From contig NZ_MXAV01000020.1 of NCBI RefSeq assembly GCF_002847505.1, positions 1-64,000 on the forward strand: a DNA stretch of 64,000 nucleotides, in the 5' to 3' direction. The position numbers and the translations under genes are program-made. The stretch's first letter is position 1, and each line of letters opens with the position of its first letter. The notes under the pieces are model-generated. The model ran no database searches, was not told the DNA's origin, and worked only from the letters and a program-made list of their open reading frames with translations. The DNA is from Acidithiobacillus marinus. GTDB taxonomy: Bacteria; Pseudomonadota; Gammaproteobacteria; Acidithiobacillales; Acidithiobacillaceae. Shown in pieces: positions 25,103 to 33,121 of the stretch.

Positions 25103-26446
25103 TCAATGGCCCATAATATGATCACGTAATTTATCCAGTTGTTGTTGCACCATGGTACTCAAGCTTTTCAACTGTTCTGCACCTTTATGTACGGCTGAAT
25201 TGTCGCCTTTTTTCATGGCATTGATAATGGCAATACCAAGCTTGTGCACCTGCGGATGAACCTGTTGTACGGCAACAAAGGCCTCGGATTGACCAATCGG
25301 GGTATCCACCATGCTGTCCATCCATTGCCCCAGACGGCATTGGTGGTGATCTTTCAAAGTGCTGTCATCCATTTCGGCATTAGGATGACCTATGGCTTCC
25401 AGAATTTTATTGACCCATAGTACGTGATCCGATTTTGCCACGGTCAAACGGGTCGCCAGAGCCGGTTCTCCCTGGGTGGCTGCTTCACTTCCTTGAACAA
25501 GGGCTTCTTGAACCTGATCCAGATTGTGGCGAATACCCTTGAACTGCTGAGTAAATTGCTGCATGGATTGTTGCAAGGCATTCATATGTGTTCCCATGGC
25601 TTCAGCGGCGGTAATTTCCTGAACGCTGCCATGCACAATGCTTTCAATGTTGCCACGCGTTTTCTGGGCGGACTGATTGGCCATGCCCAGCACTTCAGCT
25701 ACTGTTTCAAGAGAGTCTCCACCGCGACGCAAATGGACGATACTGGCGCTCACCCCTGATTCCACCTGTATGGCCCCTTTGTTGATGGTGGTGGCCGAAC
25801 TGCGAATATCCGCCGCAGCCCGAGCAGAACTCTGGGCCAGCTTTTTCACTTCGTCAGCTACGACCGCAAAGCCGCGTCCATGTTCCCCGGCGCGAGCGGC
25901 TTCAATGGCGGCATTGAGGGCCAGCAGATTGGTCTGCTTGGCAATTTCCTGAACTTTGGCAGCCAGTGTGGTAATGGTGCGGGTTTGTTGCAGAAAAGCC
26001 TGGACGGTTTCCCCCATAGCGGTCACAGACTGTTCGACAAGATCCATTTCGCCAATGAGCTCAGACAATCTTTCGTTACCCATTTGTACATCATGCAGAG
26101 TCGCTTCAGCCAGTTCCTGATTGGCTCCCACACTCTCGGCTATATGACGTACCGCAGCCACTACTGCCTGAGCCTGATCGACCAATGCTTGACTGTCCTG
26201 CTGAGCGCTTTGCAGGTTTTTGTCAAAATTCATGCCCAGCAGATGACTGTCAGCGGTTTTTTCCAATGCGACCACCTGATGATCCAGGACGCGACAGCCC
26301 TGCCAGAGACGGGCTTTTTGCCAGTCACAGATGGGCGTAATGGTTTTCGCGAGTTCAGGATCCTCCTGAATGAGCCGGGCTGTGTCAGCGTCTCCGTCCA
26401 GACAGGCGGAAAACAGGGAGAGTAGCGTTGGGTTTTCGGTAGACAT
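25103..26446 (-). CDS. soluble methyl-accepting chemotaxis protein with CZB domain
   Basis: 447 residues, no signal peptide and no membrane helix, so a cytoplasmic receptor. The signalling hairpin tip is intact ([20 protein letters not shown]). The C-terminal 110 residues form a CZB (chemoreceptor zinc-binding) domain: a first His in DHVLWVNKI, then HHQCRLGQW and HPQVHKLG, giving the His-Cys-His-His zinc set. CZB domains are linked to sensing of zinc, pH or reactive chlorine. The N-terminal 90 residues have no recognised fold. It is the last receptor of the chemotaxis operon, after cheV. Confidence 0.9.
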
Positions 26447-26472: not shown

Positions 26473-27429
26473 TTAATGAGGACGAATGACGTTGGTGATG
26501 GCACGAGCGAGATCATCGGGCAAAAATTTTGCCACATAGCCATCGGCATTGACGCTACGCGCGTGGGCCTCATTGGCGGTACCCGACAAGGAGGAGTGAA
26601 TGACTACTGGTACATCGTGAAGCGCTTCGTTTTCCTTGATGCGCCGGGTGAGAGTGAAGCCATCCATCTCCGGCATTTCCAGATCGGTCAATACCATGGC
26701 GACCTTGTCATGAAGCGGGATACCCGCCACTTTCGCATCCTGGGCCAATTGCTGTAGTCGCTCCAGGGCTTCTTTCCCGGTTTTGGTCCCGATGAAGGCC
26801 AATCCCAGGCTTTTCAGGGTTTTTTCTATTTGATTGCGGGCCACGCCAGAATCGTCCGCGTAGAGGATCACGGCGCCTTTGGGGATTTCTACTGCATGTT
26901 GCTGTACCAGCTCATCTCCAGCCTTGAAACGGGAGGGCAGCACCTGGCGGAGAATGTGTTCCACATCCAGCACCAGGGCCAGACGCGCTTTTTCTTCATC
27001 TTCATCAAGCCTGGCCAGACTGGTGACCAGGCCCCCTACGGAAGCACCTTCCGCCGAAAGTACTCGACTCCATTCCAGGCGGACTATTTCTTCCACATCT
27101 TCCACAGCGAAACCTTGCACGGAGCGCTCATATTCCGTGACGAGAAGAATATTTAATCCTTCGGTTTTACAACCGACTACTGCAGGTAAATTAATGACAG
27201 GGATGATTTGCCCGCGAATATTGGCTACCCCCATCACATGCTCGGGAGCGCCGGGCATGGGCGTGATTTTAGGCATGACCAACGCTTCCCGCACCTTGAA
27301 CACATTGATGCCAAATAACTCACGACTATTGGTGCCGGGATCTGAGCCGAGGCGGAATACCAGCAGTTCGAACTTGTTGGTACCTGCCAGTTGGGCTCGT
27401 TCATCCACTTCCCGTAATAACTGATTCAT
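26473..27429 (-). CDS. cheV: chemotaxis coupling protein CheV
   Basis: 318 residues: a CheW-like domain (about 1-165, with NIRGQIIPVINLP) followed by a receiver domain (about 190-315) with VILYADDSG, phospho-acceptor Asp in LTDLEMPEMDGF, and a lysine near FLPDD. It couples receptors to CheA and can be phosphorylated in adaptation. The cluster has no separate cheW, so CheV is probably the main coupler here. It sits between the two CZB receptors. Confidence 0.93.
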   Translation of the reverse strand: MNQLLREVDERAQLAGTNKFELLVFRLGSDPGTNSRELFGINVFKVREALVMPKITPMPGAPEHVMGVANIRGQIIPVINLPAVVGCKTEGLNILLVTEYERSVQGFAVEDVEEIVRLEWSRVLSAEGASVGGLVTSLARLDEDEEKARLALVLDVEHILRQVLPSRFKAGDELVQQHAVEIPKGAVILYADDSGVARNQIEKTLKSLGLAFIGTKTGKEALERLQQLAQDAKVAGIPLHDKVAMVLTDLEMPEMDGFTLTRRIKENEALHDVPVVIHSSLSGTANEAHARSVNADGYVAKFLPDDLARAITNVIRPH

Positions 27430-27439
27430 GATGTAGTCC

Positions 27440-28690
27440 TCACTGACTTTCCTGAAGGGTGGTGTTCAGCGCATCCAGTTGTTGAAAAATCCTGTCACGA
27501 TTCCCCAAAACTTGCTGTAGCATTTGCTGAGATCGTTCCTTGTCCCCTGACTGATGGAGAGCCAGAAGTTCTCTGGTGCTTTGATGAAACTTTCGATGCG
27601 GTTCTGCCAGAGCGATAAATGCGGCATCCTTACCCAGTAGTTGAGCACCAATACCGTCATACCAGCGGCCCAGCGTGCAGCTATGATGATCTTTGAGATC
27701 TTCCAAACGCAGGCTGTGCTGATCTCCCAGTAACTCGTTCTGCAAGCGCTGCACAACAATTTCATGCCTTTGGCGGGCTGCAGTCAGGGTCATGGAAGCC
27801 GCCAAAGTACGCAACTTTTTAATTTCATACTGCAAATTTTTGGCAACATCCCCAGACTGCTGCGCCTGAGCCTGGTTTTTCTGGGCTGCTTCATCAATAT
27901 GCCGCGCGGTGCTGGTGACGGCAGTAATATTGTTTTGCACTTCGTCTGTAGCTTCTTGCACTCGGCGGGATAGGTTGCGGACTTCATCGGCCACTACGGC
28001 AAATCCCCGACCATGCTCCCCGGCTCTGGCCGCCTCAATGGCGGCATTCAGTGCCAGTAAGTTGGTTTGATAAGCAATATCACGAATAGTCTGAGCGATC
28101 TGTCGAATGGAGCTCACTTCTCCTATCAGCGATTTAGTGGCCTGATGATTGTCATCAATGGATTTTGCCAGCAGAAGCAGGTTCTTGTTGACGGTTTCCA
28201 TGGCCGTTGCCGTTTCAGCAGCAGTATCGGTGAGCATCTGGGCATTATGCGTAGCTTGCTCGGAGCTGAGGTTGGAAAATTCTACTATCCGGCGCTGAGC
28301 ACTCAAATCTTGCCAAGAAGCATGATAAGCAATGGGCGTTCCGGATGTATCACGCAGAACAGTAAATTGTAGTGCGAAGGTGATGGTCCCCAATCGCAGT
28401 TCTGCCTGGTGGCTTTGAATGCTTCCTTTGGCCAAATCCCGAAAAATCTGCCGAATCCGCTCTGGATCTTTGTGAAATTGATGAATGGAATGATTGAGGG
28501 CATTACGGACATCTGCACCACGTAATAATGGATTTAGTTGATCATGATAAAAATCCATGATTTTTTGTGCACTCGGATTCATGTAAAAGATGCAATTTTC
28601 CATGGCAGCATCGGCTTCGCAGAGCATTTCCAGGGTCGGCAACGGATCCAGCAGTGCTTGCGCATACTCTTCCAGGGTTGATCTATCCAT
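27440..28690 (-). CDS. soluble chemoreceptor with PAS-like N-terminus and CZB domain
   Basis: 416 residues, cytoplasmic. Residues about 15-125 resemble a PAS domain ([16 protein letters not shown]). The signalling domain has the conserved tip [24 protein letters not shown] domain ends the protein (HEIVVQRLQ, then [19 protein letters not shown]), carrying the zinc ligands. The signalling domain is shorter than in membrane receptors. It is 10 bp upstream of cheV and 20 bp downstream of the di-iron protein gene. Confidence 0.88.
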
Positions 28691-28710: not shown

Positions 28711-29460
28711 TTAAATGATGGCCGTGCCGACAGTGAGCTTGTCGAACCAGTCCAGAAAGCGTTTGACGTTATCACCACTGTATATGGCCCCATGCTGCGG
28801 ACACAGGTATTGAATATCCATCTGGCTGACCCGCTCTATCCAGTTTTTCTTGGCAGCATTGGAAGGCATCCAGCGTTCGTGAAAATATTTGGCCTTGCTG
28901 ATATGTTCTGCAAATGCCCGCCCGGTTTTGTCGCGCCGATCCACCCAGGCATCATGACCGGGAGGTAACAATGCCGCCCCTACATCGCCTGAAAAAAGAA
29001 TTTTTGCTTCTGGATCATAGAGGTGAAAATTGGCGGAGGAATGCAGGTAATGCGCGGGAATAAACTCCAGGCGTCTTCCACCGATAATGATACTGCCACC
29101 GGTATCCTCGATATTTTGCAGGGGAGCATCCAGAGCCCCGTAATGCCGGATAAAGCCTTCCCAGAGCTTGGGGATATGCCATTCCATTTTTTCATTACAA
29201 GCGTGCCAGAGGGGCAGACTGGAGGCGATATCGGGATCCTGATGCGATACAAAAGCCGCTTTCAGGCTGGAAGGTGGTACGGCTTCGACCAGTGCGGCAA
29301 ACACCTGAGGAAATATCTCAAAACCACCGGGATCCAGGATGATGGTTTGCTCATTAGATTCGATGACATAGACGTTGGAATCAATGACACGATGTTCATC
29401 CTGATCGTAAATAATCCACCAGCGGTGACTGCCTGCTTCAAAGATGGGTGCTGCTTTCAT
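28711..29460 (-). CDS. ODP-like di-iron metallo-beta-lactamase-fold protein
   Basis: 249 residues with the flavodiiron-type beta-lactamase fold but no flavodoxin domain. Iron ligands are visible: [10 protein letters not shown] (HxDxD in place of HxExD), His in [11 protein letters not shown], Asp in [10 protein letters not shown] and His in LCPQHGAIY. This is the pattern of ODP, an oxygen/iron sensor linked to chemotaxis in Treponema denticola. Its place between cheA and a soluble receptor supports a sensory role, perhaps oxygen or Fe(II) taxis. It overlaps the preceding gene by 23 bp. A diffusible enzymatic role cannot be excluded. Confidence 0.8.
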
Positions 29461-30058
29461 GTTCCAGACTCTCCAATTGGTGACGATAGCTGCGAATCGC
29501 CAGTGCGACGGTGCGGACGGCTTCGCCCATTTCTCGGGATACCCGCATCAGGGGGGCTCCAGTGCTTTCTGCCAGAGCGGCTTCAATGCGGCCATTGGTG
29601 ACCACATATTCCTGCTCTTCAATACCTTCCTGAAGCAGCTGAACCATCTCCAGAAGCCTTTCCAGTACTGCCTTTGCTTCAGCTTCTTCTTCCACAATGA
29701 TTATTTGCCATTTTTTTTGGGTACTGCGCAGGCCTGGGCAGTGTTTTTCATGATCTGCGTTATGCGCGAGCATCTGCTCAAAAGAATCAGAAAAGCGTTG
29801 ATGCTGCAAAATACGCATATAGGCTTCGATGAGCGGGGCAATGCTTTCCTGGAGATGTGCAGCGGAGTCCTTGAGGGTGGCGGCGCGCTCCCGAAAAGCC
29901 TGGGCTACGACCCCATATCCAGCCAGGGCATTACCATGCCGCTTCACGAGAACCATGGCGTTGAGGGCGCGGCGGTCAATTTCCCGCAAGGCTTTTTCGA
30001 TGCTTTGACGCGCGGCAAAAGAAGCATCTACAACTCCCATGATATGCTGAATATTCAT
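29438..30058 (-). CDS. chemoreceptor-tip-like helical protein
   Basis: 206 residues, soluble and largely helical. The segment RALNAMVLVKRHGNALAG then YGVVAQAFRERA (about residues 30-60) follows the receptor signalling tip pattern ([27 protein letters not shown]) at the conserved Asn, Arg, Gly and VVA positions, though only a short part of a receptor is present. The rest is long helices. It lies between cheA (1-bp contact) and the di-iron protein (23-bp overlap), so it may link that sensor to the CheA array. The resemblance is my own reading; no family is known to me. Confidence 0.6.
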   Translation of the reverse strand: MNIQHIMGVVDASFAARQSIEKALREIDRRALNAMVLVKRHGNALAGYGVVAQAFRERAATLKDSAAHLQESIAPLIEAYMRILQHQRFSDSFEQMLAHNADHEKHCPGLRSTQKKWQIIIVEEEAEAKAVLERLLEMVQLLQEGIEEQEYVVTNGRIEAALAESTGAPLMRVSREMGEAVRTVALAIRSYRHQLESLEHESSTHL

Positions 30059-32133
30059 CAGGCAGCTCCTATGCAGGGCGTGTTTTTTGTTGTTGGATCG
30101 CTGCTGTGATCAAGCACATGATTCACCAGGGCATTGGCGTCGAGAATCAGCACGACATTGCCCTTACCGGAGATCGTCGCGCCCTGATACCAGTTTTGTT
30201 CAGCAAGAAAATCTATGGGCTTAACCACTGAGTCTTCGTTCCCCAGTACTTCGGAGACCATGAATAGTCCACGCTCAGTCAGTACGCCTTCAATAGGCTC
30301 GGAACCTAATCGGAGCGAGCGTTCGTGGAGTAAGGCACCCAAGTCGACAATGGGTACGACCTCAGTACCATCCACCCGATAGACCGTACGTCCACTCATA
30401 CGATGTATGCGGGTTTTCTGTATATCCAGCAAACTTTCGATACTGGAAACCGGGAGGGCATAGATCTCTCGCCGCAAACGTAGGTAAAGTACCGGAAGTA
30501 CAGCCATGGTCAGCGGGAATTCCATGGAAATGCGAGTTCCCAATCCGGGGCGAGTCTGAATGTCCAGACGGCCACGCAGCTTGCGGACGGTCTCCTTGAC
30601 TACATCCATACCCACACCGCGTCCGGAGATGTCGGTGACCTGGTCGTTGGTGGAGAATCCAGGTCGGAAAATCAACTCCACTGCTTCCTGCTCCGAAAGT
30701 CGAGCACCTTGTTCGGCACTAATAACGCCCTTATCGATGGCTTTCTGAATCACAAACTGGCTATCAATGCCGCGACCATCATCGGAAACATCAATCCTGA
30801 CCTTGTCACCAAGGTGTATGGCAGCTACGCGTATTTTGGCGCTTCGCGACTTACCTGCGGCCTGGCGCGCTTCAGGAGATTCAACCCCATGATCCAGACT
30901 ATTGCGGAGCAGATGGGTCATGGGACCGGAAAGTGCATCGACAACCGCTTTGTCGATTTCTACATCTTCTCCGACAATTTCCAGGGCAACCTCCTTGGAG
31001 AGTTGTCGGGATGCATCGCGAACCACTCGAGGCAGCTGCTGAAACAGTCGCTTGCAGGGCTGCATCCGCAAGCGCATAACGGTACTCTGAATGTCGTTTA
31101 CCGTGAGATCGACTTCTCTGGCGATACGCAGCATGTCTTCATTTTCTTCGCCGAGGCTGCCAATGGCCGAACTGAGGCGATTGCGCAGGAGAACCAGTTC
31201 TCCGACCTGGTTCATCACGGCATCCAGGCGAGCTGCATCGACCCGCAGGGTAACATCCGCAGTCTCCTGAGTGCCGGGACTGCCACGCACAGCTGCCGGA
31301 GCCGCCGGTTGGGATGTTGGAGAAGGTGGAGCCGCTGGACTTGGGGCAGGGGCAGTCTGTACCGAAGCAACTGGTGGATTGCCTGGCGCTGCGGTCACCG
31401 GCAGATCTTCCGCACCTTTGGGCGAAATTTCTGTATCAAAGCCCGGGGCTTTGTCACCATAGAGCTGATCCAGTACCTGTTCAAATTCTTCCGGAGAAAT
31501 CTCATCACTGGCAGCGCATTGGCTTTCCGGAGGGGGGGCATAACCGGGTGCTTGCGTTCCATAGAGTGCGTCAAGTGTGGCTTCAAATTCTTCTGCGGAA
31601 ATTTCGTCTGATCCCGTGTCAGGGGAGGGTGTTGCGTCAGCGCGTTCCAGAAAAAGACCTGCTTGCCCATCGGCTGTGGCGCGTTGGCTGACCTTAAGGG
31701 TCGCTTCTGGTGCAGTACAAGCGGGAAGGGTGGGCTGCAAGGGTTCCACTGGAGTCGTTCCAGCTGCCAGTTGACGAATGATACCGCTCAACTCTTCTGG
31801 TCCTGGCGCAGGATATTCCCCATTGGCGAGTTGCTGCAGCATATCATCGATGACATCCAGACCCCGCAAAATGGCATCAATCATTGGGCCGGTAACAGTC
31901 AAAGTATGGGAACGCAGCTTGTCGAGCAGATCTTCCAGATGATGCGTCCAGTTGACCAGATTTTCGGCTTCGAGAAATCCCGCTCCGCCTTTCAGGGTGT
32001 GGAAAGCACGGAATACTGAAGCCAGAACATCGTCATTACCCGGATCAGACTCCAGACGCAAGGTGTCGTCCTGGGCCTTTTCCAGTAGCTCCCGGGCTTC
32101 GGGTAAATAATCCTGCAGAATTTCCATATCCAT
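30058..32133 (-). CDS. cheA: chemotaxis histidine kinase CheA
   Basis: 691 residues. P1 has phospho-acceptor His45 in FRAFHTLKGG. P3 dimerisation starts about 293, the P4 kinase has HLLRNSLDHGVE (N box) and DDGRGID plus GRGVGMD (G boxes), and the P5 CheW-like domain starts about 540. In place of a typical P2 there is a Pro/Ala-rich linker with two near-copies of DEISxEEFExxLDxLYGxxAPG (residues 176-197 and 210-231). The kinase phosphorylates CheY and CheV. cheZ lies 4 bp upstream. Confidence 0.95.
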   Translation of the reverse strand: MDMEILQDYLPEARELLEKAQDDTLRLESDPGNDDVLASVFRAFHTLKGGAGFLEAENLVNWTHHLEDLLDKLRSHTLTVTGPMIDAILRGLDVIDDMLQQLANGEYPAPGPEELSGIIRQLAAGTTPVEPLQPTLPACTAPEATLKVSQRATADGQAGLFLERADATPSPDTGSDEISAEEFEATLDALYGTQAPGYAPPPESQCAASDEISPEEFEQVLDQLYGDKAPGFDTEISPKGAEDLPVTAAPGNPPVASVQTAPAPSPAAPPSPTSQPAAPAAVRGSPGTQETADVTLRVDAARLDAVMNQVGELVLLRNRLSSAIGSLGEENEDMLRIAREVDLTVNDIQSTVMRLRMQPCKRLFQQLPRVVRDASRQLSKEVALEIVGEDVEIDKAVVDALSGPMTHLLRNSLDHGVESPEARQAAGKSRSAKIRVAAIHLGDKVRIDVSDDGRGIDSQFVIQKAIDKGVISAEQGARLSEQEAVELIFRPGFSTNDQVTDISGRGVGMDVVKETVRKLRGRLDIQTRPGLGTRISMEFPLTMAVLPVLYLRLRREIYALPVSSIESLLDIQKTRIHRMSGRTVYRVDGTEVVPIVDLGALLHERSLRLGSEPIEGVLTERGLFMVSEVLGNEDSVVKPIDFLAEQNWYQGATISGKGNVVLILDANALVNHVLDHSSDPTTKNTPCIGAA

Positions 32134-32137
32134 GCTT

Positions 32138-32623
32138 TTAGATCCCCAATTCCGCCAATAAGCTGTCGACTTCGTCCTGATTGATGCTGGGATTGCTATC
32201 GGTAGATACCTCGGGTGTTGGATGCTTGCTGGTATCCAACCCGGTTTCTGCCAGAGTCAGGCGAATCCGCTCTTCAACCGCCTGGAGCAGAGCAATAGCC
32301 TTTTTTAACCGCTGACCGGCAAGATCCTGCCCCTGCTGGCTGGCCAGAATCACCAGTAGTGCACTTTCGATCTGCTTGAGGGGTTCATCTATGAAGCTGT
32401 TATGGGCGTTGCGAATATCCGCGACCGCATCCTGAGCTCTTTCCACAGCGGCCAAGGTGGCCATGGTCTGTTCTTCGGTCAGACGCAGGGCTTCTTCCAG
32501 GGGGTTTTGCGCCCCGGAGAGTTTTTCTTCAGCGGTATTGGCAATGCGTTTCAGGCCTTCTCGTAGCAGGAGTTCCGCTTCGCCCAGCAATCGATTGGGA
32601 TCCAGTGGATTTTGGGTATTCAT
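32138..32623 (-). CDS. cheZ: chemotaxis phosphatase CheZ (short form)
   Basis: 161 residues, against about 214 in E. coli. The active-site helix has [14 protein letters not shown], matching the CheZ motif QDLTGQxIK with its catalytic Gln. The C-terminus [12 protein letters not shown] matches the CheY-binding tail, after a flexible Ser/Pro linker. It dephosphorylates CheY-P. The stop overlaps nothing, while the start overlaps the cheY stop by 4 bp. Confidence 0.88.
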
Positions 32624-33039
32624 CCCTGGGCTCCTTGGGCGGCTTGCAGTCGTTTGAAGACACTATCGAGTTTTTCTTTCAGGGTATCCGCTGTAAAGGG
32701 TTTGACGATATAACCGTTGACTCCCGCCTGGGCTGCTTCGAGAATATTTTCGCGCTTGGCTTCGGCCGTCACCATCAGAACCGGTATGTGCTTGAGTTGC
32801 GGATCGGAGCGGATGGCACGGAGCAAATCAATACCCTGCATGTTCGGCATGTTCCAGTCGGACACCACAAAATCAAAAGGACGAGTATGCAGTTTTTGCA
32901 GTGCCTGGACGCCGTCTTCAGCTTCATCGAAATTACTGAAGCCCAATTCACGTAATAAATTACGCACAATGCGCCGCATGGTAGAGAAATCGTCCACTAC
33001 TAAAATGTGGATGCCCTTGTCGACCTGGTCAATGCCCAT
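32620..33039 (-). CDS. cheY: chemotaxis response regulator CheY
   Basis: 139 residues, a single receiver domain: acidic pair in [11 protein letters not shown], phospho-acceptor Asp in [13 protein letters not shown], Thr in [13 protein letters not shown] and Lys in [11 protein letters not shown], all very close to E. coli CheY. The ATG at 33039 follows GGAGGAG and is preferred over the longer frame from 33090. CheY-P binds the flagellar switch. First gene of the operon that runs down to 25103. Confidence 0.95.
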
Positions 33040-33065
33040 AAATGATGATCTCCTCCTTGAGTCAA

Positions 33066-33082
33066 ACCCCGCCGCTCGGGGT
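33066..33082 (-). other. hairpin in the cheY leader
   Basis: Stem ACCCCG / CGGGGT with a 5-nt loop, about 27 bp upstream of the cheY start and just before its ribosome site. It is short and not followed by a T run long enough for a terminator. It may shape translation initiation. Confidence 0.35.
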
Positions 33083-33121
33083 ATCAGCAAGCAATTACTG
33101 TACCAATATACGACGGGGCTT

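Follow-up and report, generated by a model that had tools for sequence, protein, structure and literature searches.

The present analysis is concerned with the question of how an oxygen-binding di-iron protein (ODP), encoded within a chemotaxis operon of Acidithiobacillus marinus, could pass a signal to CheA; the operon lies in a stretch of 64,000 nucleotides (contig NZ_MXAV01000020.1, positions 1 to 64,000), which we refer to as the window. ODP has already been described as an oxygen/iron sensor that is coupled to soluble receptors (PMC7666581; PMC6978683): in Treponema denticola, it influences the ordering of CheA in the arrays and is coupled to an MCP homologue without sensing and membrane parts (PMC7666581), and it is reported as a sensor of Fe[II] and oxygen in the title of a PNAS paper cited in PMC7666581. 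Furthermore, the TREND case study (PMC7319448) mentions groups of ODPs whose MCP genes come in two different orders, and a published drawing of the chemotaxis cluster of Acidithiobacillus lists a “flavoprotein” in the place between CheV and CheA (PMC5468388); this is probably the ODP, the name being contradicted by the lack of a flavodoxin domain.

The ODP of the window is encoded by the open reading frame 28711–29460 of the minus strand (249 residues), exactly where the sequence-only reading, made from the DNA letters, had placed it; its assignment is based on the list of open reading frames, Pfam, solved relatives and alignment. The ODP profile (PF19583) is matched over positions 1–194 of 194, with 227.4 bits against a cut-off of 27.2, and the best matches in the PDB, 6qrq (E 2e-59) and 6qnm (E 1e-42), are both oxygen-binding di-iron proteins, aligning with the window ODP over the whole length at 41% and 33% identity; we take 6qrq/6qwo and 6qnm/6r9n to be the ODPs of T. 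denticola and T. maritima. Flavodiiron proteins are next among the PDB matches (E 3e-9 and weaker), and the weak matches include NO reductases. The ligand positions of the solved ODPs are all kept, namely H73 (codon 29242–29244), D75 (29236–29238), D77 (29230–29232), H140 (29041–29043), D159 (28984–28986) and H223 (28792–28794), all on the minus strand, and the six positions are invariant in 133 of the 133 aligned relatives. The motif of the window ODP reads S-H73-Q-D75-P-D77-I, i.e. HxDxD without a following histidine; in the 133 relatives, HxDxD is followed by I, V or T and never by His, while the flavodiiron protein 1ycf, taken for comparison, has HTESDH, with the histidine present. No flavodoxin domain is found in the 249 residues, PF19583 and Lactamase_B being the only Pfam matches. 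The HxDxD variant, the absence of a flavodoxin domain and the conservation of the ligands have thus all held up, and the kinship with ODP, as it had been claimed, is borne out by the profile, the solved relatives, the ligands, the synteny and the tree; judged by its sequence, the protein is an additional member of the known ODP family, and ODP-type sensing in chemotaxis is already known.

Membership of the flavodiiron enzyme family was considered and rejected for the window ODP, which has no C-terminal flavodoxin and carries the HxDxD ligand variant instead of HxExDH. A broader version of this idea is that the ODP is mainly an enzyme, either an oxygen or NO scavenger descended from flavodiiron proteins or a hydrolase, whose task is to protect or tune the array and not to sense; the fold, which is that of the flavodiiron proteins, and the weak matches to NO reductases agree with it, but we regard it as very improbable, given the missing flavodoxin domain, the I, V or T that follows HxDxD, with HxExDH in none of the relatives, and the strict linkage of ODP to a receptor-tip protein, which is presented below.

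On the minus strand, the genes of the operon are arranged in the order cheY (32620–33090, with TTG as the listed start, although the true start may be further in), cheZ (32138–32623), cheA (30058–32133; Hpt, dimerisation, HATPase and CheW-like domains), hyp206 (29438–30058), ODP, a soluble MCP with a C-terminal CZB domain (27440–28690), cheV (26473–27429; CheW and receiver domains) and a second soluble MCP with a CZB domain (25103–26446); the che and MCP genes were assigned by Pfam, together with the list of open reading frames for cheY and with hydropathy for the two MCPs, neither of which has a transmembrane segment (maximum KD19 0.93). The N-terminal 140 residues of the MCP at 27440–28690, matched by PAS_9 at E 0.24 only, are perhaps a PAS domain. 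ODP had been read as lying between cheA and soluble receptors: it does lie between cheA and two MCPs without transmembrane segments, but the direct neighbour of cheA is hyp206, not ODP, and the synteny supports the genetic coupling of ODP to CheA and to soluble receptors that had been claimed. The start of hyp206 overlaps the end of cheA, and its stop overlaps the start of ODP by 23 nt, an end-to-start arrangement of the three genes that points to translational coupling. The product of hyp206, a receptor-tip protein of 206 residues, is proposed here to be a single-chain, four-helix pseudo-dimer and a relay between ODP and CheA.

Only four proteins of the window genome exceed the MCP cut-off, two in the ODP operon and two in a second chemosensory cluster (G000:C15:3281-9881), which comprises CheA, CheR and two MCPs; the genome has two CheA proteins, and its only CheR match is located in this second cluster, on contig C15. 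It therefore appears that the flagellar ODP operon responds only to signals from inside the cell and has no methylation genes itself; since both of its MCPs are devoid of transmembrane segments, the flagellar system may be confined to such signals.

The linkage of these genes was explored in 80 ODP relatives that were gathered by scanning genome contigs. A relative of hyp206 is located directly before ODP in 79 of the 79 readable loci, one locus (L035) being left out of the upstream count because its sequence ends at ODP. ODPs of at least 64% identity are found in the same che operon in Acidithiobacillus, Thiomonas, Acidihalobacter, Tibeticola and some bog MAGs, and cheA precedes hyp206 in those of their loci that are long enough to show it; of the relatives of 50–53% identity, those of Methylobacter and of one gammaproteobacterium are within or close to other che clusters, and those of Dechloromonas/Azonexus are outside che clusters. 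Close homologues do not, then, always occur outside chemotaxis loci: every readable one of at least 64% identity is in such a locus, and the ODP relatives away from chemotaxis loci are only the paralogues of about 36% and some relatives of about 50% identity. Even away from che genes, hyp206 adjoins every evaluable ODP of its clade, and strong hyp206 matches (>120 bits) in 57 related genomes occur only beside an ODP of the hyp206 type. Both genes are present in 23 of the 29 family genomes and neither is present in the other 6; three genomes (G012, G015 and G018) have no cheA, no hyp206 and no hyp206-type ODP, the other scanned family genomes having cheA. This co-occurrence of ODP and hyp206, and their absence together with cheA, indicates that the pair is passed on as a single unit together with the chemotaxis system.

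The same loci bear on the possibility that ODP signals through the soluble CZB-MCPs (27440–28690 or 25103–26446) as an accessory to ordinary receptors, with hyp206 doing no more than giving structure to the array or serving as its scaffold. In the window, ODP is indeed directly followed by a CZB-containing MCP, and the ODP of T. denticola is coupled to an MCP homologue devoid of sensor and membrane parts (PMC7666581), but the MCP behind ODP is absent or escapes recognition in several relatives (L009 and L016) and in the Dechloromonas/Azonexus loci, where hyp206 is always present; we consider this route unlikely, and hyp206, a partner that had been overlooked, the likelier direct relay for ODP. 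The occurrence of the hyp206–ODP pair outside che loci in Dechloromonas/Azonexus suggests that part of its role may work without a neighbouring cheA.

Several further loci were observed in this survey. In L058-L081, mostly from Dechloromonas/Azonexus, the hyp206–ODP pair is outside che genes, and in L062 its neighbours are genes for PhaC and for a beta-CASP metallo-hydrolase. In one genome (L120:8609-9351, G004, a single contig), the chemotaxis ODP is broken by stops/frameshift, with hyp206 and cheA intact, which is either a natural knock-out or a sequencing error. Second, diverged copies of the ODP cluster, with 70–75% ODP identity, occur alongside the first within one genome at L118 and L119 (G021 and G026) and at G001:C45. 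Lastly, bog MAGs labelled Acidobacteriaceae/Bryobacterales (L018-L021) carry the same operon with about 70% ODP identity, through horizontal transfer or wrong binning.

In a tree of 82 proteins, the hyp206-coupled ODPs form one clade (support 100/100), ODPs that are coupled to Roadblock genes are on another branch, and the solved ODPs are outside both groups. Acidithiobacillus has both kinds, the second being about 36% identical and located beside a Roadblock/LC7 gene; in G015, this is the sole ODP. In Acidithiobacillus as in other Pseudomonadota, members of the Roadblock-associated subfamily (L112-L117, L121, L123, L124 and L137-L146) lie outside che loci, and a further set of ODPs outside the hyp206 clade (L147-L161 and L125-L127) has neither a hyp206 nor a Roadblock partner detected.

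What kind of protein hyp206 is was sought in its weak similarities. No Pfam model exceeds its cut-off for the window hyp206, MCPsignal (PF00015) reaching E 0.032 and 14.5 bits, below the cut-off of 34.6; across the family, MCPsignal is the commonest weak Pfam match, found in 37 of 40 members, with E 4.3e-10 in the best one. A profile of 40 hyp206 relatives matches chemoreceptors of the PDB, the best match being the soluble receptor 3g6b/3g67 (E 1e-9), which, like 3ur1, is presumably Tm14. Profile positions 7–89 cover nearly the whole receptor fragments of 3ur1 and of 4jpb, a structure of CheA P4-P5 with CheW and a TM14 fragment (PMC6746300). In profile-profile comparison, each half of hyp206 matches the MCP tip separately: the N half with a probability of 94%, none of 200 heptad-preserving shuffles being as good, and the C half without gaps over 90 columns, at a probability of 30%, weak when taken alone, with 1 of 200 shuffles as good. 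The two halves compared directly give no significant internal repeat (probability 0.4%), so that a recent duplication is not shown. The candidate explanation of hyp206 as a chance helical protein was rejected on the receptor profile matches and the heptad-preserving shuffles. By profile, hyp206 is thus homologous to the chemoreceptor tip, despite the sub-threshold Pfam score of the window protein.

The two tips are unlike each other. Tip 1 (residues 27–56; 29891–29980, minus strand) keeps Tsr A379, N381, A382, R388, G390 and G395, and tip 2 (residues 150–176; 29531–29611, minus strand) keeps Tsr I384, E385, A386 and V399, in a Tsr numbering that we anchored on N381. In the alignment of 40 hyp206 relatives, tip 1 has A379, N381 and A382 in all 40, R388 in 38 (K in 2), G390 and G395 in 38, and never E at position 385, while tip 2 has I384 and E385 in all 40, A386 in 39, and never R at position 388. 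E385 is therefore confined to tip 2 and R388 to tip 1, so that what belongs to one receptor tip is divided, in complementary parts, between the two tips of a single chain; in receptors, trimers of dimers are mediated by conserved E and R residues of the tip (PMC12871147).

AlphaFold models of the window hyp206 (mean pLDDT 89.7) and of a divergent relative from L059 (89.4) find single-chain four-helix bundles as their best structural matches (Z 16.7 over 175 residues at 2.2 A for the former, Z 17.6 over 178 residues at 2.4 A for the latter), and the designed bundle 8a3k (127 residues) is entirely covered by both models at 2.1 A. Since such bundles are a common arrangement, these matches describe the shape of hyp206, not its kinship; no MCP signalling domain is among the structural matches listed, which speaks neither for nor against kinship, and Foldseek with the hyp206 model returned no match at E<=0.001. 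For a four-helix bundle, the chain has to turn within its first ~97 residues, a place consistent with tip 1; DSSP has no helix break at tip 1 in either model, and the exact first turn is thus deduced from bundle geometry and homology.

As regards the signal, the ODP of the window is 96% identical to that of the nearest named relative, A. montserratensis, with 84–87% DNA identity in the operon region. The organism had been described as living on sulfur and iron redox chemistry, which our findings do not support: rusticyanin has no match in the window genome, so that the organism is probably a sulfur oxidiser only, and oxygen taxis is likelier than iron taxis. That Fe(II) and not oxygen is the main ligand of ODP, the cell sensing iron supply or iron stress, would accord with the title on the T. 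denticola protein cited above, but is opposed by the lack of rusticyanin and by the retention of the chemotaxis ODP in records named as iron oxidisers (A. ferrivorans, A. ferrianus and A. ferruginosus) and in the presumed sulfur-only window genome alike, which indicates that the gene does not follow iron oxidation; we give this reading little credence.

Our preferred answer, which we hold to be reasonably probable, is that the locus is an intracellular oxygen (possibly Fe(II)) input to flagellar chemotaxis, with ODP acting via hyp206 on CheA. Judging from studied relatives, ODP would bind two irons and form a stable peroxo adduct with oxygen, its states differing in shape; it would then act on hyp206, a soluble receptor-tip protein whose gene overlaps that of ODP, through a contact suggested by gene adjacency. 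A single hyp206 chain is predicted to form a four-helix bundle resembling the end of a receptor dimer that contacts the kinase; tip 1, with its R388-type residue and those for contact with CheA/CheW, and tip 2, with the E385-type residue, would have the roles that the sequence match and the model suggest. In this form, hyp206 may join a cytoplasmic array of the two soluble CZB-MCPs and CheV and alter the activity of CheA, hence CheY-P and swimming; the likeliest behaviour would be aerotaxis of a sulfur-oxidising acidophile to its preferred oxygen level.

Chemoreceptor signalling is thought to need homodimers that are grouped as trimers. We tentatively suggest, at somewhat less than even likelihood, that chemoreceptors of a new class are represented by hyp206, whose single chain would be a pseudo-dimer with joined and specialised tips (N381/R388 versus E385) and a dedicated relay for a separate oxygen-binding protein, sensing and kinase control being split over two soluble proteins. 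If this is true, nature has provided a one-chain pseudo-dimer whose tips differ, and with it the contribution of each dimer half to CheA, CheW and the packing of the array could be tested directly. The locus is also a candidate oxygen input for motile Acidithiobacillus, organisms that serve in bioleaching and about whose chemotaxis inputs little is known; in one species of the genus, A. caldus, a deletion of rpoF has been made (PMC6543871). The new part is the ODP–hyp206 pair and the one-chain receptor tip with split residues, their homology and linkage being findings and the mechanism a proposal; no description of hyp206 was found in the literature searched, in which the PNAS 2019 paper on ODP was covered through papers that cite it.

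Among the known systems, the T. denticola ODP (TDE2498, with receptor TDE2496) resembles the window ODP in having all ligands, no flavodoxin domain and a gene coupled to a sensor-less soluble receptor, whereas the window ODP belongs to a separate clade, its partner is the divergent hyp206, a proposed single chain with two tips, instead of a canonical dimeric MCP, and its host is an aerobic acidophile, unlike that of the T. denticola system. The flavodiiron proteins (ROO, FprA) have the metallo-beta-lactamase di-iron fold in common with the window ODP, which has neither their flavodoxin domain nor their histidine after the motif. The Roadblock-coupled paralogue of Acidithiobacillus has the same full PF19583 match and the same ligands, but, at about 36% identity, it adjoins a Roadblock/LC7 gene and not che genes. 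For hyp206, the closest solved relative by profile is Tm14, the soluble receptor of Thermotoga maritima: both are without a sensor domain and of similar chain length (213 residues in Tm14, 206 in hyp206), but Tm14 has one tip per chain, at mid-chain, and dimerises, whereas in hyp206 the MCP-like tip is at residue ~42 and another segment resembling a tip follows at ~165.
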